64,000 nucleotides of DNA from positions 62,001 through 126,000 of the forward strand of contig JAJQGJ010000019.1 in NCBI GenBank assembly GCA_021200565.1. The letters run 5' to 3'. A program made the position numbers and the translations under genes. The stretch is from Oscillospiraceae bacterium (GTDB lineage: Bacteria > Bacillota > Clostridia > Oscillospirales > Ruminococcaceae). The notes under the pieces were generated by a model. That model had not been told where the DNA came from. It saw nothing but the letters and a program-made list of their open reading frames with translations, and did not search any database. This document shows positions 4,506 through 55,363 of this stretch, piece by piece; positions within the stretch are counted from its first letter, which is position 1; each line of letters begins with the position of its first letter.

Positions 4506-5690
4506 GTGGCGGACGGCAAGAAATCCTCAAAAACCAGAATCAAAAGAAACCTACTGCACAGATTTGTCTGGACCTTTCTTTGGGTGATCGCCCAGCCATA
4601 TATGGCTATAAGATACGGCTTCAGAACCAAGCACTTAAGGCTTAAGGAGCCCTGCCTTGTAGTTTCAAACCACCTCACCGAGATAGACATGATAATGGTC
4701 GGCTGCGCTTTTCCGAGGCAGATGTATATAGTCGGCGGCGAGCATATAGAATCAAGAAGCATCTTCCCGGTGCTCGATTTCTTCTTCCACCCGATAACCA
4801 TGTACAAAGCGGATGCCGACACCGCAGCAGTAAAAGAGATTATCCGCAGGCTAAGAGCCGGGCACAGCATTATGCTTTTCCCGGAGGGCAGCCGCTCCTT
4901 CAATGGCGAAACCGAAACGCTATCAGACAGCATCGGAAAGCTCTGCAAATCCGGAAAATGCGGACTCGTTACATATCACCTGGGCGGCGGCTACTTCACC
5001 GCTCCGAGATGGGCTTACACCACCCGCAAAGGCAAGATGTGGGGCGAGATAAAGAGCTACTTAACCGCTGAGGAAGTCGCAAAAATGACCCCGAAAGAGA
5101 TTACAGAGCTCATAAATCACGACATCCACGACAACGCTTATGAAACCCAGCGTGTCGAAATGAATCCCTATAAAGGCGAACGTCTGGCAGAGGGGCTTGA
5201 AAACTACCTCGTAATCTGTCCCCAATGCGGCGAGTACAACAGCCTTGAAACCTCCGGCGATACATTCAGATGCCCGCACTGTGGAATGTCAGGAAAGTAC
5301 AACGAATACGGATTCCTTGAGGGCGAAAACCTCCCTTATGACAACGTCTATGACTGGGGCAAGTGGGTTGAGAAGAAGTTCCGGGATGATTTAGCTGAGA
5401 AGCAGCCGAATGAACTCTTATTCACAGACAGCGACTTAAGATTCTACGAAATCGCACCGAACCATGAGAGAATAACGCTTCAGGAGACGGGGATCAAGGG
5501 CTATTCCGACAGAATAGAGATTGGAGGATCTATATTCAGCTTCTCCGAGATAACCGGAATGGACATGCTCTACTACGGCAAGACGCTGATGTTCACCTGG
5601 CAAGGGCGTCACTTCGGACTGACCGGCGAAAGCTTCCACGCCGTCCGGTACAAATGGACATATGACTATTATTTGACCGCAGGGAAATAA
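4506..5690 (+). CDS. PlsC-type acyltransferase with C-terminal zinc ribbon
   Basis: Lysophospholipid acyltransferase-like protein (1-acylglycerol-phosphate acyltransferase fold) that would act at the inner membrane face. It starts with GTG 4506. Motif I NHLTEID (about residue 58) and motif III FPEGSRS (about 126) are the catalytic signatures. After about residue 235 the family domain ends and a zinc ribbon follows (CPQCGEY ... CPHCGM), then a globular tail of about 120 residues that ends in a PH-like stretch. The extra C-terminal half is unusual compared with the roughly 240-residue basic enzyme; its role is unknown. Confidence 0.85.
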   Translation: MADGKKSSKTRIKRNLLHRFVWTFLWVIAQPYMAIRYGFRTKHLRLKEPCLVVSNHLTEIDMIMVGCAFPRQMYIVGGEHIESRSIFPVLDFFFHPITMYKADADTAAVKEIIRRLRAGHSIMLFPEGSRSFNGETETLSDSIGKLCKSGKCGLVTYHLGGGYFTAPRWAYTTRKGKMWGEIKSYLTAEEVAKMTPKEITELINHDIHDNAYETQRVEMNPYKGERLAEGLENYLVICPQCGEYNSLETSGDTFRCPHCGMSGKYNEYGFLEGENLPYDNVYDWGKWVEKKFRDDLAEKQPNELLFTDSDLRFYEIAPNHERITLQETGIKGYSDRIEIGGSIFSFSEITGMDMLYYGKTLMFTWQGRHFGLTGESFHAVRYKWTYDYYLTAGK

Positions 5691-46269: not shown

Positions 46270-48339
46270 TTGAAAACCTACGACAGCGCACATATCAAAA
46301 ATATCACCTTGGCAGGTCATTCCGGCTCCGGTAAGACTGCTCTTTGCGAGGCAATTCTCTATAAGGCAGGAGTAACCGACAGACTCGGACATGTTGCCGA
46401 CGGAAATACAGTCTCCGACTACACCCCTATCGAAATTTCCAAGAAGTGTTCTATCTATACTTCGCTTTCATATTATGAAAAAGATGGCGTCAAGGTCAAT
46501 ATCCTCGACACCCCTGGTCTTTTCGACTATGCGGGAGGAGTCGTAGAGGGCGCATATGCTGCTGACTGCATGCTCATAACCGTATCAGCAAAATCTGGTA
46601 TCCATGTCGGAACGAGAAAGGCTTATGATAATGCCGTTGCTCACAAAACTCCTCATATGTTCGTCGTAACAAAGATTGATGATGAGAACGCAAACTTCTC
46701 TAATGTCTTAACAAGCCTCAAGACCGAGTTCGGCTCGAATGTCTGCCCGATAGTCGTTCCACTCATCAAGGATCATAAGATCGTTTCCTACTATGATCTC
46801 TTAGCAATGAAGAATTATAAGTACGGTCCCAAGGGAGAGCTCATCGACGCCGGAGAGCCTGAGCCTACATACCGCATTGACGGTCTTATCGAGGCTATGA
46901 GCGAGGCTGTCGCTGAAACTGACGAAGAGCTCCTGATGAAGTTCTTAGAGGGTGAAAAGTTCACCCACGAAGAGCTCGTCGAAGGCATCCACAATGGTCT
47001 TGCAAACGGACTCATCACTCCTGTAACCTGCGTTTCCTCGGAGGATCTTGCAGGCGTGGATATTCTTATTGATTATATTACAAAGCTTCTCCCGTCTCCT
47101 CATGAGCTGGGCGACGTCAAGGCTACAGATGCCGATGGAATCGAAGTCAGCATCACCCATGACAACGACGCTCCTCTTTCTGCATTCGTCTTCAAGACGG
47201 TTGCCGACCCGTTCGTCGGAAAGATGTCCTTCATCAAGGTCATTTCTGGCAAGATCGAGAGCGGCAAGGAAATTGTCAACGCCACTACCGGCGGAACCGA
47301 AAAGGTTGGCAAGCTCCTGAACCTCGTCGGCAAGAAGCAGATTGAAGTTCCGTTCGCAACAGCTGGCGACATAGTTGTCGCAACAAAGATGTCCATCAAC
47401 ACCAACGACACCATCTGCGATTCTTCAAGAGTCGTCTCCTTCCCGAAGATCACCTTCCCGAGACCCTGCTATTCGGTCTGCGTCAAGGCAAAGACCCAGG
47501 GCGACGAGTCGAAGATTTCCGGTGCTATGCAGAGACTCCTTGAGGAAGACCTTTCGCTCACCTACAAGCAGGACGACACCACATTTGAGCAGATTCTTTC
47601 CGGTCTCGGAGAGCAGCATATAGATTCAACGCTTTCTAAGCTAAAGACCGGCTTCGGCGTCGACGTCATCACCTCCACTCCTAAGGTCTCCTATAAGGAA
47701 ACCATCCGCAAGAAGTGTAAGGTTCAGGGCAGACACAAGAAGCAGTCGGGCGGTCACGGTCAGTATGGCGACGTCTGGATCGAGTTCGAGCCCTGCGACA
47801 GCGACGAGCTCGTATTCGAAGAGAGCGTATTCGGTGGTGCAGTTCCACGTAACTTCTTCCCAGCAGTTGAGAAGGGTCTTCAGGACTGCATGAAGAAGGG
47901 CGTCCTCGCAGGCTTCCCGGTTGTCGGCGTCAAGGCCACTTTGGTTGACGGCTCCTATCACCCGGTTGATTCCTCCGAAATGGCGTTCAAGATGGCAGCA
48001 TCCATCGCTTTTAAGGAAGGCATGAAGCAGGCAAGCCCCATTCTCCTCGAACCTATCGACAGCCTCGAAGTAACCGTTCCCGATGCCAACACCGGCGACA
48101 TGATGGGCGAGCTCAATAAGCGCAGAGGAAGAGTTTTAGGCATGAACCCGTCAGGCAAGAAGGGCTTGACAACCATCACCGCCGAGATCCCCGAGTCCGA
48201 AACCCATGATTTCGCAATGGTAGTCCGCCAGATGACCAGAGGCATGGGCGAATTCACCCTCGAAAAGCTCCGCTATGACCAGCTCCCCGCAAACCTTGTC
48301 GATGCTGTAATTGCAGAGTTCAAGACGGATGAGGAATAA
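46270..48339 (+). CDS. elongation factor G-like GTPase (EF-G paralogue)
   Basis: About 689 residues with the five-domain EF-G layout. The start is most likely TTG 46270, six bases after GGAGAG; ATG 46252 lies upstream of that site and has no ribosome site. G1 is GHSGSGKT, G3 DTPGLFDYAGG and G4 VVTKIDDE, where Asn of the usual NKxD is replaced by Thr. Switch I carries IEISKKCSI instead of the canonical EF-G sequence. Domain IV HGQYGDVWIEFEP and the C-terminal VRQMTRGMGEFTLE are kept. It belongs to the second EF-G group common in Clostridia; its function, translation stress or another ribosome task, is not settled. Confidence 0.87.
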   Translation: MKTYDSAHIKNITLAGHSGSGKTALCEAILYKAGVTDRLGHVADGNTVSDYTPIEISKKCSIYTSLSYYEKDGVKVNILDTPGLFDYAGGVVEGAYAADCMLITVSAKSGIHVGTRKAYDNAVAHKTPHMFVVTKIDDENANFSNVLTSLKTEFGSNVCPIVVPLIKDHKIVSYYDLLAMKNYKYGPKGELIDAGEPEPTYRIDGLIEAMSEAVAETDEELLMKFLEGEKFTHEELVEGIHNGLANGLITPVTCVSSEDLAGVDILIDYITKLLPSPHELGDVKATDADGIEVSITHDNDAPLSAFVFKTVADPFVGKMSFIKVISGKIESGKEIVNATTGGTEKVGKLLNLVGKKQIEVPFATAGDIVVATKMSINTNDTICDSSRVVSFPKITFPRPCYSVCVKAKTQGDESKISGAMQRLLEEDLSLTYKQDDTTFEQILSGLGEQHIDSTLSKLKTGFGVDVITSTPKVSYKETIRKKCKVQGRHKKQSGGHGQYGDVWIEFEPCDSDELVFEESVFGGAVPRNFFPAVEKGLQDCMKKGVLAGFPVVGVKATLVDGSYHPVDSSEMAFKMAASIAFKEGMKQASPILLEPIDSLEVTVPDANTGDMMGELNKRRGRVLGMNPSGKKGLTTITAEIPESETHDFAMVVRQMTRGMGEFTLEKLRYDQLPANLVDAVIAEFKTDEE

Positions 48340-48354
48340 TTCTTAGAAATAACA

Positions 48355-48389
48355 AAAGCCGTTCCGGAATTAACCGGGACGGCTTTCTT
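48355..48389. terminator. bidirectional terminator between the EF-G-like gene and trxA
   Basis: AAAGCCGTTCCGG / CCGGGACGGCTTT stem (one G-U pair) with A run on the left and TTTCTT on the right; serves both converging genes. Confidence 0.85.
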
Positions 48390-48399
48390 AATGCAAATT

Positions 48400-48708
48400 C
48401 TACTTAGTGAGCTGAGCTAAAAGCTCCTCTTTCTCCATATACCCAACCGAAGTTGCTACGAGCTCGCCATCTTTCAGCATGACGATAGTCGGAATCGCAG
48501 TGACCTTGAACTTGTTTGCAAGCTGTGGAGCCTCATCGACATTGCACTTGCAGACCTTGAATTCCTCATGCTCTTCGGCAATCTCGTCGACAATGGGGGA
48601 CATCATCCTGCACGGTCCGCACCATTCAGCCCAGAAGTCGATAATGACCGGCTTGGTGGAGCCCATAACCTCAGCTTCAAAATTTTCGTTAGTCAATGCA
48701 GTCAGCAT
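48400..48708 (-). CDS. trxA: thioredoxin
   Basis: 102 residues with the redox motif WAEWCGPCRMM and the cis-proline loop VTAIPTIVM. Full length, cytoplasmic. The gene 17 bases upstream encodes a ferredoxin:thioredoxin reductase-like protein, which suggests that this thioredoxin is reduced by ferredoxin rather than NADPH (inference). Confidence 0.97.
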   Translation of the reverse strand: MLTALTNENFEAEVMGSTKPVIIDFWAEWCGPCRMMSPIVDEIAEEHEEFKVCKCNVDEAPQLANKFKVTAIPTIVMLKDGELVATSVGYMEKEELLAQLTK

Positions 48709-48725
48709 TTAAATCATCCTTTCTT

Positions 48726-48923
48726 TTACTTTTCCTTATAGTAGAGCCTGCAGTGGCAGTATCCCTCAAACTCGGGGTCGGCAACCTGCTCACGGAACTC
48801 TTTACACATGCACATGGTGTCCTCGGTCATATCGAGCCGGCAAGGGCAGTGACCCTCTTTCTTGAGAAGCCCTTTTCTTATAGCCTCGACAATCTTCTCG
48901 TCCTTATTGTAGTACAGCTTCAT
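48726..48923 (-). CDS. ferredoxin:thioredoxin reductase catalytic-chain-like protein
   Basis: Start ATG 48923 after AAAGGATG; 65 residues, shorter than plant FTR beta chains but with the full cysteine pattern: HCPCR, then MCMCKEF, then GYCHCRLY. These ligands would hold a 4Fe-4S cluster next to a redox-active disulfide. Adjacent to thioredoxin, and the window also has a 2[4Fe-4S] ferredoxin gene at 57961. No FTR variable subunit is visible. Confidence 0.85.
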   Translation of the reverse strand: MKLYYNKDEKIVEAIRKGLLKKEGHCPCRLDMTEDTMCMCKEFREQVADPEFEGYCHCRLYYKEK

Positions 48924-49002
48924 TTTAGTCATCCTTTCAGGCACAAACATAGTTTGCCCTTAAGGATATTGTACATGCATTTGAGGAGTTTGTCAAGAGA
49001 TA

Positions 49003-49160
49003 TGTAGGGGCGGATATTATCCGCCCGTTGTTGTGTCAGCATTTTTTCGGGCGGATATTATCCGCCCGCTACTTATCGACTGCGATTTTTCGGTCTGGAT
49101 GCAGAAGTTCGCTGTGCGAACTTCGGAAGTTTGGCAAAGCCAAACTTCTCCGCCCCTACA
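49003..49160. repeat. composite MITE-like element, TGTAGGGGCGGAT family (copy 4)
   Basis: Starts with the same 25-bp arm as the 41815 and 44720 copies; the second arm (49048-49068) is interrupted and followed by hairpins GAAGTTCGC/GCGAACTTC and GAAGTTTGGC/GCCAAACTTC before the terminal CCGCCCCTACA at 49150-49160. Looks like an insertion or expansion within a simple copy. Confidence 0.75.
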
Positions 49161-49176
49161 GTGGTAGACCCAGCCC

Positions 49177-49473
49177 TTACAGCAGCAAATACCCCAGTGC
49201 CACCAGCAATTTTATATCCGCCTTATTTTTATACAGCACAAACAGCATCATAAGTATCAGAGCCTTTTCGGAGTCGAGCTTAAAGCCGTCGCCTAATATG
49301 TTCTTGAAAAGATTGTTTACGTCCAGTGTCGGTCTGCTTGGCTGATTTACAGGAGGAGCAGGTGGTGGAGGTTCAGGCGGAGGCGGGTTGACAACCGTTC
49401 TTGAGCGGCGCTGCATTTCTCTCATGCGGTCTAATGCTTCCTGCTGCATTCTCGAAAACTCAGATTCCGGCAA
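49177..49473 (-). CDS. small proline-rich protein with hydrophobic C-terminus
   Basis: A 98-residue protein of unknown function. The N-terminal 30 residues are a basic helix (RMQQEALDRMREMQRRSRT), then a Pro-rich linker (PPPPEPPPPAPP) and a C-terminal pair of hydrophobic helices (ALILMMLFVLYKN, LLVALGYLLL). Overlaps the upstream gene by 14 bases in a different frame. The three small genes here form one operon. Confidence 0.65.
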   Translation of the reverse strand: MPESEFSRMQQEALDRMREMQRRSRTVVNPPPPEPPPPAPPVNQPSRPTLDVNNLFKNILGDGFKLDSEKALILMMLFVLYKNKADIKLLVALGYLLL

Positions 49474-49822
49474 AGAAATCGCCTCCCAGAAGACCGCTTT
49501 CGCTTATGAGCGGTAGTAAGTTCAGAAGCCGAAGAATCTTCACCGCACGGTCAATCTTATTCTGCTTTTCCTCGCCAAGAAGCGGACGGAGAGCCAGAAG
49601 AAACCGGGTGTTATCGTCATCCGGCTGAAAGCCTTTCATCTTCTGCATAAGCCCAGTAATTGCACTCATGTCGAGGTTTTCAGGAGGCTTTGTAGCCTCT
49701 GGCTGAGGATTTCCATCTGGCGACAGCCCGAGCATGGCGGCAAGCTCGCCCAGTTGCTTCATGCTTTCTTCATCGGACAGAATCGAGCCAATTTTCTCTG
49801 CAAAGTCATCCATCGCCGCCAC
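49460..49822 (-). CDS. helical hypothetical protein of a three-gene operon
   Basis: A 120-residue, mainly helical cytoplasmic protein with no known motif. Helices at 4-30 (FAEKIGSILSDEESMKQLGELAAM), 52-65 and 70-105 (LLALRPLLGEEKQNKIDRAVKILRLLNLLPL). GGAGGTGG before the start. Overlaps the downstream proline-rich gene. No functional assignment. Confidence 0.7.
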   Translation of the reverse strand: MAAMDDFAEKIGSILSDEESMKQLGELAAMLGLSPDGNPQPEATKPPENLDMSAITGLMQKMKGFQPDDDNTRFLLALRPLLGEEKQNKIDRAVKILRLLNLLPLISESGLLGGDFFAGI

Positions 49823-49844
49823 CTCCTCTGGCTCAATTCAAATG

Positions 49845-50090
49845 CTATTTGTTATCTGGAAAGAGCTTTTTCATGAGTTCCTTCGCTTGAGGGCTCGAAA
49901 GCACCATCTGCGCCGTCGCCGGATTCGAAAGCGCCGCCGTCAGCCTTGAAGCTTCATTTTTCGGAAGAGACCCCAAAAGTCTGTCGAAAGTCCCATTCTT
50001 GAGCTCCGCCCTCAGCTGCTCTTCACTCACTCCCAATTTCGCCGAAGCGTTCTTGATAAGATATTCAATCTGCCTGTCACTAAGATTCAT
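49845..50090 (-). CDS. helical hypothetical protein, first gene of a three-gene operon
   Basis: An 81-residue protein made of short helices (QIEYLIKNASAKLGVSEEQLRAEL, EASRLTAALSNPATAQMVLS, AKELMKKLF). TTGGAGGTGC ribosome site. Unknown family. The fused look of the trio (helices, Pro linker, membrane end) suggests a small membrane-associated complex (inference). Confidence 0.7.
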   Translation of the reverse strand: MNLSDRQIEYLIKNASAKLGVSEEQLRAELKNGTFDRLLGSLPKNEASRLTAALSNPATAQMVLSSPQAKELMKKLFPDNK

Positions 50091-50118
50091 ATCGCACCTC
50101 CAAATGCTAAAATTTATA

Positions 50119-50147
50119 TTGCGAAAATCGCCATAGTGTGCTATTAT
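50119..50147 (+). promoter_or_regulatory. promoter of the YfcE-like gene
   Basis: TTGCGA (50119-50124), 17 bp, TATTAT (50142-50147). The transcript would carry the palindromic repeat 50174-50222 in its leader. Confidence 0.55.
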
Positions 50148-50173
50148 AAATGTAATTGTTGAGAGAATGTCAC

Positions 50174-50222
50174 TGGCTCCCCTTGATAAGGGGAGCTGTC
50201 AGCGAAGCTGACTGAGGGGTTT
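50174..50222. repeat. palindromic repeat, CTCCCC/GGGGAG family, single arm
   Basis: GGCTCCCC/GGGGAGC and GTCAGC/GCTGAC hairpins ending ACTGAGGGG, inside the leader of the YfcE-like gene. Confidence 0.8.
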
Positions 50223-50243
50223 CCAAAAAGAAGGAGTGTTGTA

Positions 50244-50729
50244 ATGCGAATAATTGCTTTTTCCGACTCCCACGGTCTTCATGCCCGGGCTGAGGATTTG
50301 ATAAATAGAACCAAGGACACAACCGACATCTATCTCTTTGCGGGAGATGTTCTGAAAGATGTCAGAAATATTCCCGAAATGTTTCCGGACGTGAAGCTCG
50401 TCACCGTCCCAGGAAACTGCGACTACACCTCCGGCGACCTGCCGATTCAGGTTGTTCATGCTGCCGGAAAGAAGATAATTCTAACCCATGGTCATCTTCA
50501 CCACGTCAAATATGGTCTTGAAAGCCTGCAGGAGCTCGCCTATCAGAACCGTGCCGATGTCGTGGTCTATGGTCACACCCACTGCCGTGCAATCGATTAC
50601 ATAAACGGCATCTATTATGTCAATCCAGGAAGCCTTGCTCTGCCGAAGGATGGTCTTCCGCCATCCTATGCCACTATCGACATTTTCCCGAACGAAAAGG
50701 GCATACTCGTCGCAACGGTTGACTATTGA
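50244..50729 (+). CDS. YfcE/MJ0936-type metallophosphodiesterase
   Basis: A 161-residue phosphoesterase, the short type. Metal motifs: IAFSDSHG, AGDV, VPGNCD, LTHGHLHHV and VYGHTHCR. Family members hydrolyse simple phosphodiesters; the natural substrate is unknown. AAGGAG ribosome site. Confidence 0.93.
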   Translation: MRIIAFSDSHGLHARAEDLINRTKDTTDIYLFAGDVLKDVRNIPEMFPDVKLVTVPGNCDYTSGDLPIQVVHAAGKKIILTHGHLHHVKYGLESLQELAYQNRADVVVYGHTHCRAIDYINGIYYVNPGSLALPKDGLPPSYATIDIFPNEKGILVATVDY

Positions 50730-50790
50730 CAGTATATGAGAAACGAATCCAAATGTTGACTTATAAAAACCATTGAAAGGAAGATTAGTT

Positions 50791-51486
50791 ATGCTGGAAC
50801 AACTGAAAAAAGAGGTCTGGGAGGCTAATATGCTCCTCCCGAAGTACGGACTGGTCACATTCACATGGGGCAATGTCTCGGGAATTGACCGTGAGAGTGG
50901 TCTCGTCGTCATCAAGCCGTCTGGCGTTGAGTATGACACGATGAAGCCCGAAGACATGGTAGTTGTGAATTTAGACGGCAAAGTAGTCGAGGGAGATCTC
51001 AATCCGTCGTCTGACACCCCGACACACGTCGAGTTCTACAAAGCTTTCCCGAACATCGGCGGCGTCACTCATACACACTCGTCCTATGCAACTTCATTTG
51101 CACAGGCAGGATGTGGAATTCCTGCCCTCGGAACCACCCACGGCGACTATTTCTATGGCGAAATCCCCTGCACAAGAAAGATGACCCCTGAAGAAATTGC
51201 CGGAGAATATGAAAAGAACACCGGTCTTGTCATCATCGAAACCTTCAAGGACAAAGACCCCGACGCAATCCCGGCTGTATTGGTTCATTCTCATGGACCC
51301 TTCACCTGGGGCAAGAATGCCGTCGATTCGGTTCACCATGCCGTAATCCTCGAAGAATGCGCCAAGATGGCAATCCGTGCTTACGCCCTGAACCCTGAGC
51401 TTAAGCCCATGCAGCAGGAGCTTCTGGATAAGCATTACTTAAGAAAGCATGGGGCGAATGCTTATTACGGACAGAAGTTCGCCTGA
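50791..51486 (+). CDS. araD: L-ribulose-5-phosphate 4-epimerase
   Basis: Start ATG 50791 (ribosome site GGAAG); 231 residues. Class II aldolase/epimerase fold with [25 protein letters not shown], the zinc ligands in [13 protein letters not shown] and HSHGPFTWG, and a C-terminal [15 protein letters not shown]. Converts L-ribulose-5-P to D-xylulose-5-P, the last step of arabinose use; this fits a pectin/arabinogalactan diet although no araA or araB is in the window. Confidence 0.95.
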
Positions 51487-51536
51487 CGGCAAACTTCATT
51501 GTTTGCGAGAAAGGATAAATTTTTTCTCAAAACCTA

Positions 51537-51565
51537 TTGCATTTTTGAAGATAATAGCGTATAAT
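51537..51565 (+). promoter_or_regulatory. promoter of the type III toxin-antitoxin module
   Basis: TTGCAT (51537-51542), 17 bp, TATAAT (51560-51565), followed by the palindrome TGAACC-TAGA-GGTTCA at 51571-51586, which is either an operator or the 5' hairpin of the RNA. Confidence 0.75.
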
Positions 51566-51593
51566 ATAAGTGAACCTAGAGGTTCATTTAAGA

Positions 51594-51698
51594 GCATCGC
51601 TACTTTGAGTGCGACCCTTAATTTGAGTGCTTCACTACTCTGAATGTGACCGTTAATTGAAGTGCTTCGCTGCTTTGAATGCGAACCTTATTTGTAGG
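51594..51698 (+). ncRNA. ToxI-like antitoxin RNA, three 35-base tandem repeats
   Basis: Units at 51594-51628, 51629-51663 and 51664-51698, each starting GCWTCRCTRCT and containing TTGARTGYGA and a TTAATTTG-like end; roughly three quarters identical. They lie between a good promoter and a terminator that precedes a ToxN/AbiQ-like gene, exactly the architecture of type III antitoxins (known repeat lengths about 35-48 bases). Confidence 0.8.
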
Positions 51699-51730
51699 GA
51701 GGCAAGGAACTTGTCTCCCTATAGTTTTAT
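51695..51730 (+). terminator. attenuating terminator between antitoxin repeats and toxin gene
   Basis: Twelve-pair stem TAGGGAGGCAAG / CTTGTCTCCCTA (one G-U) with a GAA loop, then TAGTTTTAT. In ToxIN loci this sets the excess of antitoxin RNA over toxin mRNA. Confidence 0.85.
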
Positions 51731-51740
51731 CGGAGGGAAT

Positions 51741-52250
51741 ATGGATTTTTATCGGATTGATGAGAATTACATCGCCTATTTACAGCAATATGAAAAAGAA
51801 AAACGTGGCTTCACAAGAGTTCCAAACGTAAAATATGCTGACAGGAATAAGTTTGCTTTCGGTGCAGTGCTGGAAGTCGGCAATATAAAGTATTATGTCT
51901 CAGTGTCGTCCTACACGAAGCCTCAGGAAGCTAATATTCTGATTAAAGTCCCGGGTGATTCTCAGGAAGTAAAGGGATCGCTTAGGTTCAACTATATGGT
52001 TCCGGTTCCGGAAGAGTGTCTTACAAGACTTGTCATCAAAGATATTGAAGATGAAAGATACAGAAGACTTCTGAACAAGGAATACAGATTTTGTCAGAAT
52101 AACGTTGAACGAATTCAGAAAAAAGCAGAGAAAATCTACAGTATGATTGTGACAAATCGCAAGCAGGTTCTGACCGACAACAGCTGTGATTTCAAGCTGC
52201 TTGAACAAGCGTATAAAGAATACATAGACAAAGAAAGGACAAAATCATGA
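51741..52250 (+). CDS. toxN: type III toxin, ToxN/AbiQ family endoribonuclease
   Basis: Start ATG 51741, seven bases after CGGAGGG; the longer frame from 51657 would run through the RNA repeats and terminator and is rejected. The 169-residue product starts MDFYRIDENYIAYLQQYE and continues RVPNVKYADRNKFAFGAVLEVGNIKYYVSVSSY, the characteristic N-terminal half of ToxN/AbiQ/CptN proteins, then SLRFNYMVPVP. Family members cut mRNA and also the antitoxin precursor, and several give phage defence by abortive infection. The stop overlaps the next start (ATGA). Confidence 0.88.
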   Translation: MDFYRIDENYIAYLQQYEKEKRGFTRVPNVKYADRNKFAFGAVLEVGNIKYYVSVSSYTKPQEANILIKVPGDSQEVKGSLRFNYMVPVPEECLTRLVIKDIEDERYRRLLNKEYRFCQNNVERIQKKAEKIYSMIVTNRKQVLTDNSCDFKLLEQAYKEYIDKERTKS

Positions 52251-52810
52251 CATTCCCACCCAAAACAATAACATTAAAAGATGGTCGCAAGGCTATCTTC
52301 CGCAGTCCCGAGCTTTCCGATTGCCCGGCTTTGATTGACTATCTCCTAACCACCGCCACCGAGACCGATTTTCTCATGTCTGACCCGAGGGAATCGGGCA
52401 GATGGGAAGGCGAGGAGGGCTTACGGAGAGAGGAAGAGATTATCGAGGACAATATCTCTAGTCCCGACAAACTGATGATATGCTGCTTCGTTGACGGCGA
52501 ACTCGCCGGAAACTGCTTCATCAGCTATAACACCCGTGTCAAGACTGCCCACCGTGCCACAGTTGGCGTCGGTCTTATAAAAAAGTACTGGGGCTTGGGC
52601 ATCGGAACGGCTATGTTCAACGAGCTCATCCAGAACGCTTATGAGCGTGGCGGCATCATGCAACTCGAGCTCGACTACCTCGAGGGCAACACCCGGGCTC
52701 TCGGACTCTACACAAAAATGGGCTTCAAGGAAGTCGCCCATAAGCCGAATGCTGTCAAGCTTGCCGACGGCAGACTCCTTGACGAGATTTCGATGGTCAA
52801 GACACTATAA
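52247..52810 (+). CDS. GNAT-family N-acetyltransferase
   Basis: A 187-residue acetyltransferase; the acetyl-CoA loop region reads VGVGLIKKYWGLGIGTAMFNELI and the C-terminal motif ALGLYTKMGFKEV. It overlaps the ToxN stop by four bases, so it is expressed from the toxin transcript. Substrate unknown. Confidence 0.92.
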   Translation: MTFPPKTITLKDGRKAIFRSPELSDCPALIDYLLTTATETDFLMSDPRESGRWEGEEGLRREEEIIEDNISSPDKLMICCFVDGELAGNCFISYNTRVKTAHRATVGVGLIKKYWGLGIGTAMFNELIQNAYERGGIMQLELDYLEGNTRALGLYTKMGFKEVAHKPNAVKLADGRLLDEISMVKTL

Positions 52811-52823
52811 AGGAGTGCTGACG

Positions 52824-53228
52824 ATGAAAGAATTAGTAACTTATCAGGACAGCTTCGGTGTTGTCAACTATCCTGAGGGCTTTGAAAGCCTTATCGAGGG
52901 ACTTTCCATTCCGGAACAACTGAAGTTTTTCAGAATGGGCTGCGGGATTTACGTCAGACATCCGTTGAACGAGCGCAAGAAGAGCGAATATGATTTCAGT
53001 TGCACCATCGACGAAAGCGAGGACGTAAAGGCAATCATCGTGAAAGATGGTAAGATAGCCGGTGTCATGGTGAAAAACGTATACGGAGACACCTATCCCT
53101 GTATGGCTGAAAAGGGCTATATCATCCGTGACGATGAGGAGCTCGACGGCAGCGGTTACAAGAGCTTCACCGTCTATGAATACCTGATTTGCGTGCCCGA
53201 GGATTTTGATGAGCTGAGCGACCACTGA
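52824..53228 (+). CDS. hypothetical protein, 134 residues
   Basis: ATG 52824 follows AAGGAG. A soluble protein of unknown family: an acidic alpha/beta sequence with YPEGFESLIEGLSIPEQLKFFRMGCGIYVRHP cut by a DFSCTIDES stretch and ending VCVPEDFDELS-like. It is 13 bases after the acetyltransferase and probably in the same transcript. No motif found. Confidence 0.65.
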   Translation: MKELVTYQDSFGVVNYPEGFESLIEGLSIPEQLKFFRMGCGIYVRHPLNERKKSEYDFSCTIDESEDVKAIIVKDGKIAGVMVKNVYGDTYPCMAEKGYIIRDDEELDGSGYKSFTVYEYLICVPEDFDELSDH

Positions 53229-53307
53229 GGTCGCTCTATTTTTGTTTGCGTTGAGTGAACGCAATGCGAAAATTATGAATATCTAATGAAATTTGCTGTG
53301 ATTTGTC

Positions 53308-53346
53308 TTGACAGCAAAATAAAAAATTGCATACAATCTAATTGTA
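53308..53346 (+). promoter_or_regulatory. peroxidase promoter with OhrR-type operator
   Basis: TTGACA (53308-53313), 18-bp spacer, TACAAT (53332-53337). The palindrome TACAATCTAATTGTA (53332-53346) covers the -10 box and differs at two positions from the Bacillus OhrR box TACAATTAAATTGTA. Confidence 0.75.
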
Positions 53347-53386
53347 CACAACTTAACATAATTCTCAAGACGAAAGGATAATAACT

Positions 53387-53860
53387 ATGAGCATTTATGA
53401 TTATACAGTAAAAGACGGAAGCGGAAATGATGTTTTGCTGTCGGACTATAGAGGCAAAGTTCTTCTGATTGTAAACACTGCCACCGGTTGTGGATTCACT
53501 CCTCAGTATGACGGTTTGCAGGAGCTTTACTCAAAATATGCAGAAAAAGGCTTTGAAATTCTCGACTTCCCGTGTAACCAGTTCGCAGGGCAGGCACCAG
53601 GAACTGATGAAGAGATTGCAAGTTTCTGCACAGGTAGATTCGGAGTTACTTTCAAGCAGTTCCACAAAATCGATGTTAATGGTGCAAACGAGGAACCGCT
53701 TTATGCTTTCCTGAAATCGCAAATCGGCGGTGTAGCCGGAAAGAATATCAAGTGGAATTTCACCAAATTCCTGGTTGACAGAAACGGAAATGTGGTTGCA
53801 CGCCATGCTCCCACAAAAACACCGAAGTCCTTGGAAGAAGAAATAGAGAAGCTGTTGTGA
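53387..53860 (+). CDS. glutathione peroxidase-family peroxidase
   Basis: Thiol peroxidase of the Gpx family, 157 residues. The peroxidatic site is NTATGCGFTPQYDGL with cysteine (TGC) instead of selenocysteine; FPCNQFAGQ and KWNFTKFLVDRNG supply the Gln and Trp of the catalytic tetrad. In anaerobes such enzymes usually take electrons from thioredoxin. Its promoter has an OhrR box and the next gene encodes an OhrR-like regulator. Confidence 0.94.
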   Translation: MSIYDYTVKDGSGNDVLLSDYRGKVLLIVNTATGCGFTPQYDGLQELYSKYAEKGFEILDFPCNQFAGQAPGTDEEIASFCTGRFGVTFKQFHKIDVNGANEEPLYAFLKSQIGGVAGKNIKWNFTKFLVDRNGNVVARHAPTKTPKSLEEEIEKLL

Positions 53861-53885
53861 CTTGGCTTTCAGGAGGATTGAAAAG

Positions 53886-54311
53886 TTGGATAAGTATGAT
53901 GTTTTGAAAATTGAAAATCAACTGTGTTTTCCGCTGTATGTATGTGCCAAAGAAGTGGTGAGGAAGTATAAGCCATATCTCGACCAGATTGACTTGACAT
54001 ATACTCAGTATATTACGATGATGGTATTGTGGGAATATGGTCAGATGAATGTACGGGAGTTAGGGGACAGGCTATATCTTGACTCTGGAACACTCACACC
54101 TCTCTTAAAAAAGCTGGAGTCAAAGGGATTGATTCAAAGGGAACGTTCTGATAAAGACGAACGGAACGTGATAGTGACTCCGACTAATGAGGGTGTTGAG
54201 CTTCGGGAAAAGGCAGTCTCTATACCAATGGCAATCGGAAGTTGCATCAATTTAACGCAGGAAGAGGCACTCACGCTTTATAGATTGTTGTATAAGATTC
54301 TCGGAAAATAA
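53886..54311 (+). CDS. MarR-family organic-peroxide sensor (OhrR-like)
   Basis: Start TTG 53886, ten bases after AGGAGG; 141 residues. The N-terminal ENQLCFPLYVCAKEV carries the reactive cysteine in the position conserved in OhrR (QLCF-LY). The winged helix is at about 50-110 (YLDSGTLTPLLKKLESKGLIQRERSDKDERNV). It probably represses the upstream peroxidase until the cysteine is oxidised. Confidence 0.88.
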   Translation: MDKYDVLKIENQLCFPLYVCAKEVVRKYKPYLDQIDLTYTQYITMMVLWEYGQMNVRELGDRLYLDSGTLTPLLKKLESKGLIQRERSDKDERNVIVTPTNEGVELREKAVSIPMAIGSCINLTQEEALTLYRLLYKILGK

Positions 54312-54348
54312 ATCTGAAAATATTTTTTTAAAATTTCTCCCAACCCCC

Positions 54349-54460
54349 TTGACAAGCTCCCTAATATAGTGTATACTATAGACAGTTAGCAGAGGCTAAC
54401 ACAAATTTAGCCTCTGCTACTATAAAATCACAAGGTTAGCTTATGCTAACTGAAAGGAGA
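54349..54460 (+). promoter_or_regulatory. promoter and structured leader of a small membrane peptide
   Basis: TTGACA (54349-54354), 17 bp, TATACT (54372-54377). The leader holds GTTAGC-AGAG-GCTAAC (54385-54400), then AGCAGAGGCT / AGCCTCTGCT (54388-54397, 54409-54418), then GTTAGC-TTAT-GCTAAC (54435-54450). The first two hairpins share bases and exclude each other, and both GTTAGC/GCTAAC pairs can exchange partners. Confidence 0.65.
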
Positions 54461-54467
54461 GCCGAAA

Positions 54468-54578
54468 ATGATTACAACCATTCTGTCCGCCGCAGTGATT
54501 TCTACTGCAATTCTGCTTGTAATAAGCTCAGTAAAACGGCTCTGCCGGGGAGCTCTCATGAAGAGCCGCACGGCTTAA
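54468..54578 (+). CDS. 36-residue membrane peptide, toxin-like
   Basis: ATG 54468 follows GAAAGGAG at ideal distance. The peptide starts MITTILSAAVISTAILLVI, so one membrane helix covers about residues 3-20, and it ends basic (KRLCRG, MKSRTA). Single helix, basic tail, strong ribosome site and a structured leader resemble type I toxins, but no antisense promoter was found. Alternatively a small regulatory membrane protein. Confidence 0.55.
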   Translation: MITTILSAAVISTAILLVISSVKRLCRGALMKSRTA

Positions 54579-54619
54579 GCCAAACGATTGTCACTCCACC
54601 TTTTATACACATTTCACAA

Positions 54620-54660
54620 AAGCCGACCAGTTCCTTAAAACCGGTCGGCGTTCTCCTTTA
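54620..54660 (+). terminator. intrinsic terminator
   Basis: GCCGACC / GGTCGGC stem followed by GTTCTCCTTTAT, after the small peptide gene. Confidence 0.65.
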
Positions 54661-54682
54661 TATGTATATGCGTAATTAGGTT

Positions 54683-55363
54683 TTACCGTCTCTTCCACGC
54701 CTCAAGCCGATAAATCGGCATCCCCATATCCGAGAATCTCTGCTCATACTCAGTGACGATATTCCCCTCAAAGTCGCTGTGGTGGAGGTCCAGGCTCACG
54801 TTTCTGAGGACAAACCCATACTCCGAGAACTCCTGAATCGAGAACTCGAAGAACTCCCGGTTGTCGGCCTTCTGGAAGATTCCGGCGTCGGATTTGAGAA
54901 GCTTGTCGTAAATCTTGAGAAAGTTGTGGTGCGTAAGCCGGTGAACGGCGTAGCTCTTCTTAGGATAAGGGCAGCTGAAATTGAGATACAGCCCGGAAAT
55001 GGAGCCATCAGGGATGAACTTCTCAAGATAATTGGCATCCGCACGGAGTAAAATCAGGTTCGGGATCTTCTCCTCAATAGTCTTTTCAGCCGCCTCGACG
55101 ATAACGTTCGAGGTCTTTTCTATTGCAAGGATGTTGAGCTCCGGCTCACGTTTCGCAAGCTCCCTTGCGAACTGACCTTTGCCGCAGCCTATTTCCATGA
55201 TAACGGGATTATCGTTTCCGAAAAGAGCCGGAAGATCCAGATACTCTTTTTTCTCAACAGACGTGACAAAGTTCCTGTCCTCGCAGTTGAGGATTATGAG
55301 TCTGCCGGTTTCGATGCACCTTTCAAGTCTTTCTTCAAGGTGCGCCTTTCTTCTCATTCTCAT
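54683..55363 (-). CDS. trmB: tRNA (guanine-N7)-methyltransferase
   Basis: Methylates G46 of tRNA. 226 residues, usual length. SAM motif MEIGCGKGQFARELA, then IEKTSNVIVEAAEKT and RADANYLEKF; the catalytic region LYLNFSCPYPKKSYAVHRLTH has Ser-Cys in place of the common NFPDPWPK, a mild deviation. Overlaps the galK stop. Confidence 0.93.
   Translation of the reverse strand: MRMRRKAHLEERLERCIETGRLIILNCEDRNFVTSVEKKEYLDLPALFGNDNPVIMEIGCGKGQFARELAKREPELNILAIEKTSNVIVEAAEKTIEEKIPNLILLRADANYLEKFIPDGSISGLYLNFSCPYPKKSYAVHRLTHHNFLKIYDKLLKSDAGIFQKADNREFFEFSIQEFSEYGFVLRNVSLDLHHSDFEGNIVTEYEQRFSDMGMPIYRLEAWKRR

Follow-up and report, generated by a model that had tools for sequence, protein, structure and literature searches.

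A probable intact ToxIN-family type III toxin–antitoxin cassette between resident aldolase and acetyltransferase genes

Introduction

Does a short stretch of DNA in which a promoter, tandem repeats, a terminator and a small gene follow one another constitute a complete type III toxin–antitoxin module, or is it a decayed copy, the leader of other genes or part of a larger system? The question is raised by positions 51537-52250 of a 64,000-nucleotide (nt) stretch of an Oscillospiraceae bacterium genome (the window; located on contig 17 of a 2.18 Mb genome in 24 contigs), which a sequence-only reading had taken for a complete ToxIN-like module. The locus is very probably an intact ToxIN-family type III toxin–antitoxin module: a compact cassette of ~0.7 kb between resident aldolase and acetyltransferase genes, in which a promoter, three 35-nt units behind a possible 5' hairpin, a terminator and the toxin gene succeed one another on the + strand. 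Both ends assigned to it by the earlier reading were correct, and completeness is borne out by the family and fold of the toxin, the conservation of the promoter, the array, the covariation of its pseudoknot and the terminator. The insertion history of the cassette can likewise be read from the sequences compared. The system is a new member of the ToxIN family; the number and length of its repeats are ordinary.

All counts given below for same-genus genomes (n=31), relatives (n=60) and members of the order (n=394) include the source genome itself (G000). Counts of antitoxin units cover 11 of 13 loci, namely the window, L016-L023, L025 and L026; omitted were L024, which has a broken toxin and no array to be seen, and L027, a 32-residue match for which Tandem Repeats Finder returned no array.

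Toxin gene and transcription signals

The toxin gene (51741-52250, + strand) is an intact open reading frame (ORF) for a ToxN/AbiQ endoribonuclease of 169 amino acids, preceded by GGAGG. Its ToxN/AbiQ-like character, as read from the sequence, is confirmed by homology: the protein shares the fold of ToxN from Pectobacterium atrosepticum and Escherichia coli (2xd0, 7d8o) and is 27% identical to the ToxIN toxin of Bacillus thuringiensis and 24%, over a structural alignment, to the toxin of AbiQ-antiQ, the Lactococcus member of the ToxIN family. Tyr29, Lys33, Thr52 and Ser53 of ToxN_Pa align to Tyr32, Lys37, Ser56 and Ser57 of the window toxin; Ser57 recurs in 8 of the 9 close rows of the alignment, and position 60 is Lys or Arg in all nine. 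CptIN of Eubacterium rectale differs in that its toxin has a lower structural score against the window toxin than ToxN/AbiQ, and in that it is described as a heterotetramer with a 45-nt pseudoknot (PMC4627078), whereas the window array is built of 35-nt units and contains no unit of the 45-nt CptI type.

The toxin probably starts at ATG 51741, which has a ribosome-binding site and follows the T tract of the terminator after 12 bases, not 11 as previously counted. A mechanical ORF call begins the gene at TTG 51657, inside the array (51657-52250, 197 amino acids); with ATG 51741 as the likely start, automatic annotation may stretch the toxin gene into the antitoxin.

The promoter (51537-51565, +) consists of TTGCAT (51537-51542), a 17-nt spacer and TATAAT (51560-51565). 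Its placement ahead of the repeats by the earlier reading agrees with the comparison of loci, all 11 of which have TTGNNT exactly 17 nt before the -10 element, the latter being TATAAT in 10 of them; as its -35 element is weak, the promoter escaped a generic scan. At the boundary between antitoxin and toxin, where ToxIN systems have a Rho-independent terminator, an intrinsic terminator is found (51692-51728, +; stem 51692-51724, followed by TTTT), and a long stem occupies the same position in 11/11 loci. The presence of this terminator had been recognized, its stem having been put at 12 pairs; it comprises 15 if G-U pairs are included, and its T tract is just four T.

The antitoxin array and its pseudoknot

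Between promoter and toxin, as in other ToxIN systems, lies a tandem array (51582-51684, +), in which Tandem Repeats Finder detects 2.9 copies of 35 nt (76% matches, score 129), in agreement with the three 35-bp repeats described before. The same reading had called the repeat number unusual, a view that published arrays do not support: ToxI_Bt is given as 2.9 units of 34 nt and antiQ as 2.8 units of 35 nt (PMC5086642), P. atrosepticum ToxI has 5.5 units of 36 nt, and E. coli clusters range from 3 to 5.6 units (PMC5086642 and PMC8860590).

The pseudoknot cores of units 1, 2 and 3 extend over 51590-51615, 51625-51650 and 51660-51685 (+), respectively. When the window was searched with the 26-nt consensus core at ≤3 mismatches, the single match was unit 3, with none in 100 shuffles; units 1 and 2 deviate from the consensus at more than three positions. 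A far looser pseudoknot pattern retrieved all three units and also, on either strand, isolated sites numbering 13 in all that were never in tandem. From the 11 loci 34 units were extracted, 25 of them distinct, and their common plan is predicted to be an H-type pseudoknot of 4 + 5 pairs: 92.9% of 225 cells are paired, as opposed to 19-46% for slid versions, although the former value is inflated because the extraction pattern fixes some stem letters and demands at least 6 of 9 pairs. Two-sided changes occur in 17 cells and at 4 of the 9 pairs, with both stems represented, and the covariation score of 0.278 exceeds that of all 500 shuffles. H-type pseudoknots are likewise the published form of ToxI units (PMC5086642, PMC8860590). 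By eye, the plan S1-GC-S2-U-S1'-UGARU-S2' can be followed in ToxN-linked plasmid arrays of Pseudomonas putida and E. coli, which share it as GGUG...CGCUACC...AAGUGCG; the unit of an Enterococcus faecium plasmid array is quite unlike the window's.

The position of the array in the 5' leader of toxN, ahead of a terminator, would also suit a transcription attenuator or leader of the downstream genes formed by repeats and hairpin, the ToxN-like protein then being an RNase without an RNA antitoxin. The leader, folded without pseudoknots, is indeed more stable than its shuffles (z -3.17, with the terminator included), yet the units match the ToxI pseudoknot and bear two-sided changes, and ToxI and antiQ arrays, the latter of the same size as the window's, have shown antitoxin activity (PMC5086642). 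An attenuator is hardly credible here.

Several observations weigh against an intact ToxIN module. The profile check proposed for the toxin succeeded in part: a ToxN/AbiQ homologue is present, but no ToxN model of NCBIfam matched. Lys55 of ToxN_Pa aligns to Thr59, with Lys60 adjacent, so that the completeness of the active site is not established. As to the pseudoknot, the number of pairs with two-sided change was reached by 231 of 500 shuffles and the number of further pair types by 477 of 500; the outer pair of stem 2 is broken in 11 of the 25 distinct units, and window units 1 and 2 make 7 and 8 of the 9 pairs, respectively. A search of Rfam, which we take to hold a ToxI family, found no ToxI match in the window, nor permissively in the array. 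The covariance-model check once suggested for the repeats was in this sense negative and also uninformative, since the control ToxN-linked arrays of E. coli and P. putida were likewise unmatched. Finally, expression, toxicity and processing, and with them the functionality put forward in the sequence-only reading, are predictions, and inhibition, leakiness of the terminator and a role in phage defence or locus maintenance are inferred as well.

Some of these features could point to a decayed or silent remnant in which toxin or antitoxin no longer works. In unit 1 two of the pairs do not form, Lys55 has shifted, and broken copies do exist among relatives: G013 is without the 5' part of the toxin, while L024 is interrupted by in-frame stops and the 330 bases before it show, by eye, no array. 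Since the window has an uninterrupted ORF with its start and ribosome-binding site, an intact promoter, three intact units and an intact terminator, and the same elements persist in relatives whose toxins are 69-71% identical, decay of this copy is very unlikely.

Linkers and proposed mode of action

An intact ToxIN module of this layout could operate in the following manner: The promoter would drive an RNA that starts with a possibly protective 5' hairpin and continues with three pseudoknot units. The terminator, owing to its short T tract, would pass only part of transcription into toxN, such that antitoxin is made in excess over toxin. The UUAAU linkers of the precursor are the predicted cleavage sites of ToxN, which the freed pseudoknots would keep inactive. 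When the antitoxin supply drops, be it by phage shut-off of host transcription or by loss of the locus, free ToxN may cut cellular and phage RNA and growth would stop. Characteristic of the ToxIN family are growth arrest by the toxin, its relief by the RNA in trans, cleavage of the precursor into single units and a 3:3 heterohexamer, and of AbiQ-like abortive-infection systems phage resistance. The related ToxIN_Bt gave no phage resistance in its native host (PMC5086642).

The predicted cleavage sites reside in linker 1, CCUUAAUUU (51616-51624, +), and linker 2, CGUUAAUUG (51651-51659, +). Of the 23 linkers between units, 22 contain UUAAU, which is consistent with cleavage of the precursor into single units; of the 11 tails past the last unit, only 5 do. 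Because published ToxN enzymes typically cut between two A (PMC8860590), UUA/AU in the linkers is the probable ToxN processing site; the cleavage published for ToxN_Bt differs, being AAA/AA (ibid.).

The possible 5' hairpin and the identity of the units

The hairpin with which the antitoxin transcript may begin (~51568-51589, +; palindrome core TGAACC-TAGA-GGTTCA) is absent from the sequence-only account. In all 11 loci it is the minimum-energy fold of the stretch from the -10 element to the first unit, calculated without a shuffle control, and its stems vary in sequence yet still pair (GAACC/GGUUC, GAGCA/UGCUC). It may protect the 5' end of the precursor. When the entire leader of the window (165 nt) is folded without pseudoknots, the minimum-energy structure instead pairs part of the hairpin stretch with the array. 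By eye, a hairpin recurs in 6 of 8 leaders inspected from two further ToxIN subfamilies in this genus, whereas the ToxIN copies read from E. coli and P. putida show none.

The units themselves differ according to their place in the array. This was assessed for the 8 of 11 loci that have three units, leaving out L020 (two units) as well as L019 and L026 (four units): units in the same position are 90.8% identical across loci and those in different positions 75.4%, compared with 76.3% between the units of a single array, a pattern reached by 0 of 5000 shuffles. For a subset of four loci (the window and L021-L023), the corresponding values are 91.2, 76.0 and 76.9%, reached by 30 of 5000 shuffles. 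Stem 2 takes an A-U form (UUCAC/GUGA) in the penultimate unit of 10/10 arrays with at least three units and in 0 of 24 other units. The two-unit array of Anaerovibrio lipolyticus (L020, 3879-3940), beside a ToxN 69% identical to the window's, is without the penultimate type. In a same-genus ToxIN subfamily with 41-42 nt units the effect is weak (0.811 for same-position and 0.743 for cross-position pairs; 9 of 1000 shuffles reach it; four of five loci, L015 having been dropped as near-identical to L010), and for the divergent pair L010 and L012 alone it amounts to 0.738 vs 0.710.

It is tempting to regard the array as three non-interchangeable antitoxin units instead of copies of one, but we consider this doubtful. 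As the related loci are not independent, the figures demonstrate long inheritance without homogenisation and not necessarily function; an ancestral three-unit array that was inherited without homogenisation is the plain alternative. Orthogonal stems as a selected design were considered and rejected: units make on average 8.41 of 9 pairs with themselves and 7.54 in cross pairing with adjacent units, which is not evidence of selection because any compensated divergence yields such a gap. Should the units nevertheless be distinct in function, they and the 5' hairpin may block mispairing between adjacent pseudoknots, or slippage and recombination that change the number of units, or they may let a single transcript assemble into an ordered ring; whether ToxI repeats are equivalent could then be tested with one three-unit array. 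Neither position-specific ToxI units nor a ToxI 5' hairpin was found reported in the literature surveyed, in part from partial texts and without targeting position or leader, such that absence in print is not established; both points might be new to specialists.

Insertion site and apparent mobility

The cassette is flanked on the left by a resident class II aldolase-family gene (50797-51486, +; Pfam Aldolase_II, 2e-53), present in 31/31 same-genus genomes, and on the right by a resident GNAT acetyltransferase gene (52247-52810, +; Pfam Acetyltransf_1), both outside the module. A close GNAT homologue (at least 90% identity) is found in 11 of the 31 genomes, split over two frames in G001, and these sites reveal the history of the insertion. 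An intact module sits between aldolase and GNAT in three of the 11 (G000, G006 and G029), and one (G013) holds a remnant that has kept promoter, array and terminator stem and lost the 5' part of the toxin. In G001, G027 and G030, only 8 nt separate the aligned aldolase codons from the GNAT start, and the aldolase frame stops in the same ATGA in which, in the window, the toxN stop overlaps the GNAT start. G019, G024 and G025 have ~150-270 nt of other DNA before GNAT, towards the end of which the GAAAGGA ribosome-binding site recurs, and in G002 a contig end interrupts the interval. The DNA upstream of GNAT in these last four (L029, L030, L032, L036) is different and partly repeat-like; such differing DNA at one site in module-free relatives suggests that the site is prone to insertion.

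These comparisons bear on the idea, put forward in the sequence-only reading, that coupling to the acetyltransferase is a feature of the system. In such a three-part system the GNAT enzyme would be a functional component coupled via ATGA, modifying, for example, the toxin or its target. The overlap of toxN stop and GNAT start is common to the intact copies in G006 and G029, which occupy the same site. But 11 genomes have the GNAT gene and only three an intact module beside it; the G027 cassette lies elsewhere, with no GNAT DNA match in the 8.5 kb read; and in copies from Lachnospiraceae and Anaerovibrio (L019-L023, L026) the sequence shared by blastn is confined to the cassette. The ATGA overlap also occurs at module-free sites and is hence a consequence of insertion, the last toxin codons overlapping a GNAT start region that is also found where the module is absent. 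In view of the empty sites GNAT is rejected as a part of the system, and a three-part arrangement is highly improbable.

The extent shared by blastn places the ToxIN cassette, from promoter through array and terminator to toxin, at 51517-52231 (+), with an approximate right edge: matches to copies located elsewhere (L018-L023, L026) reach no further than 52231, and the G027 copy (L018), with 8.5 kb compared, matches only 51517-52210 of window positions 48001-55000, at 86%. The cassette is apparently mobile as a unit, and the empty sites illustrate that it can settle inside a resident gene pair. Its GC content is 39% in two cassette windows and 46-53% in adjoining ones, which is weak evidence because values of 40-43% recur beyond 53.0 kb. 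ORFs near the L018 copy (2042-2721 and 4520-5181) look, by eye, like an AbrB/PIN pair and a pair of helix-turn-helix and RelE-like genes, which would place this copy close to other toxin–antitoxin-like genes.

Distribution among relatives, plasmids and phages

ToxN matches at E 1e-3 or better occur in 10 of 60 relatives and in 21 of 394 order members. Only G000 and G013 exceed 50% identity among the latter, so most matches represent other subfamilies. Together, the related loci define a well-bounded ToxIN subfamily, with records from Ruminococcus, Oscillospiraceae, Lachnospiraceae and Anaerovibrio, a defined pseudoknot and a probable cleavage motif. An orphan array without a toxin was sought in the genus and rejected: the strict core pattern is present in 5 of the 31 genomes, three times in each, and the same five hold the subfamily toxin or its remnant.

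A search of viral contigs for related loci found none, and a core-pattern scan of viral contigs gave seven stretches with one match each, around which there was neither a tandem array nor, by tblastn, a ToxN; a phage-borne antitoxin mimic was not found within the sequence around these seven matches. More distant ToxN matches appear in 159 plasmid records and three phage records, all below 60% identity, the three phage-record homologues being 29-42% identical.

The genus contains further ToxN homologues with arrays of 41-42 nt units (L013, L010, L015, L012, L009) and of 36-37 nt units (L007, L011, L014), the third unit of the latter being, by eye, strongly unlike the first two. Two Clostridioides phages (L080, CP067347.1; L081, CP069348.1) carry unannotated ToxN homologues with arrays of three 36-37 nt units, in which units 1 and 3 are, by eye, identical and unit 2 is different.
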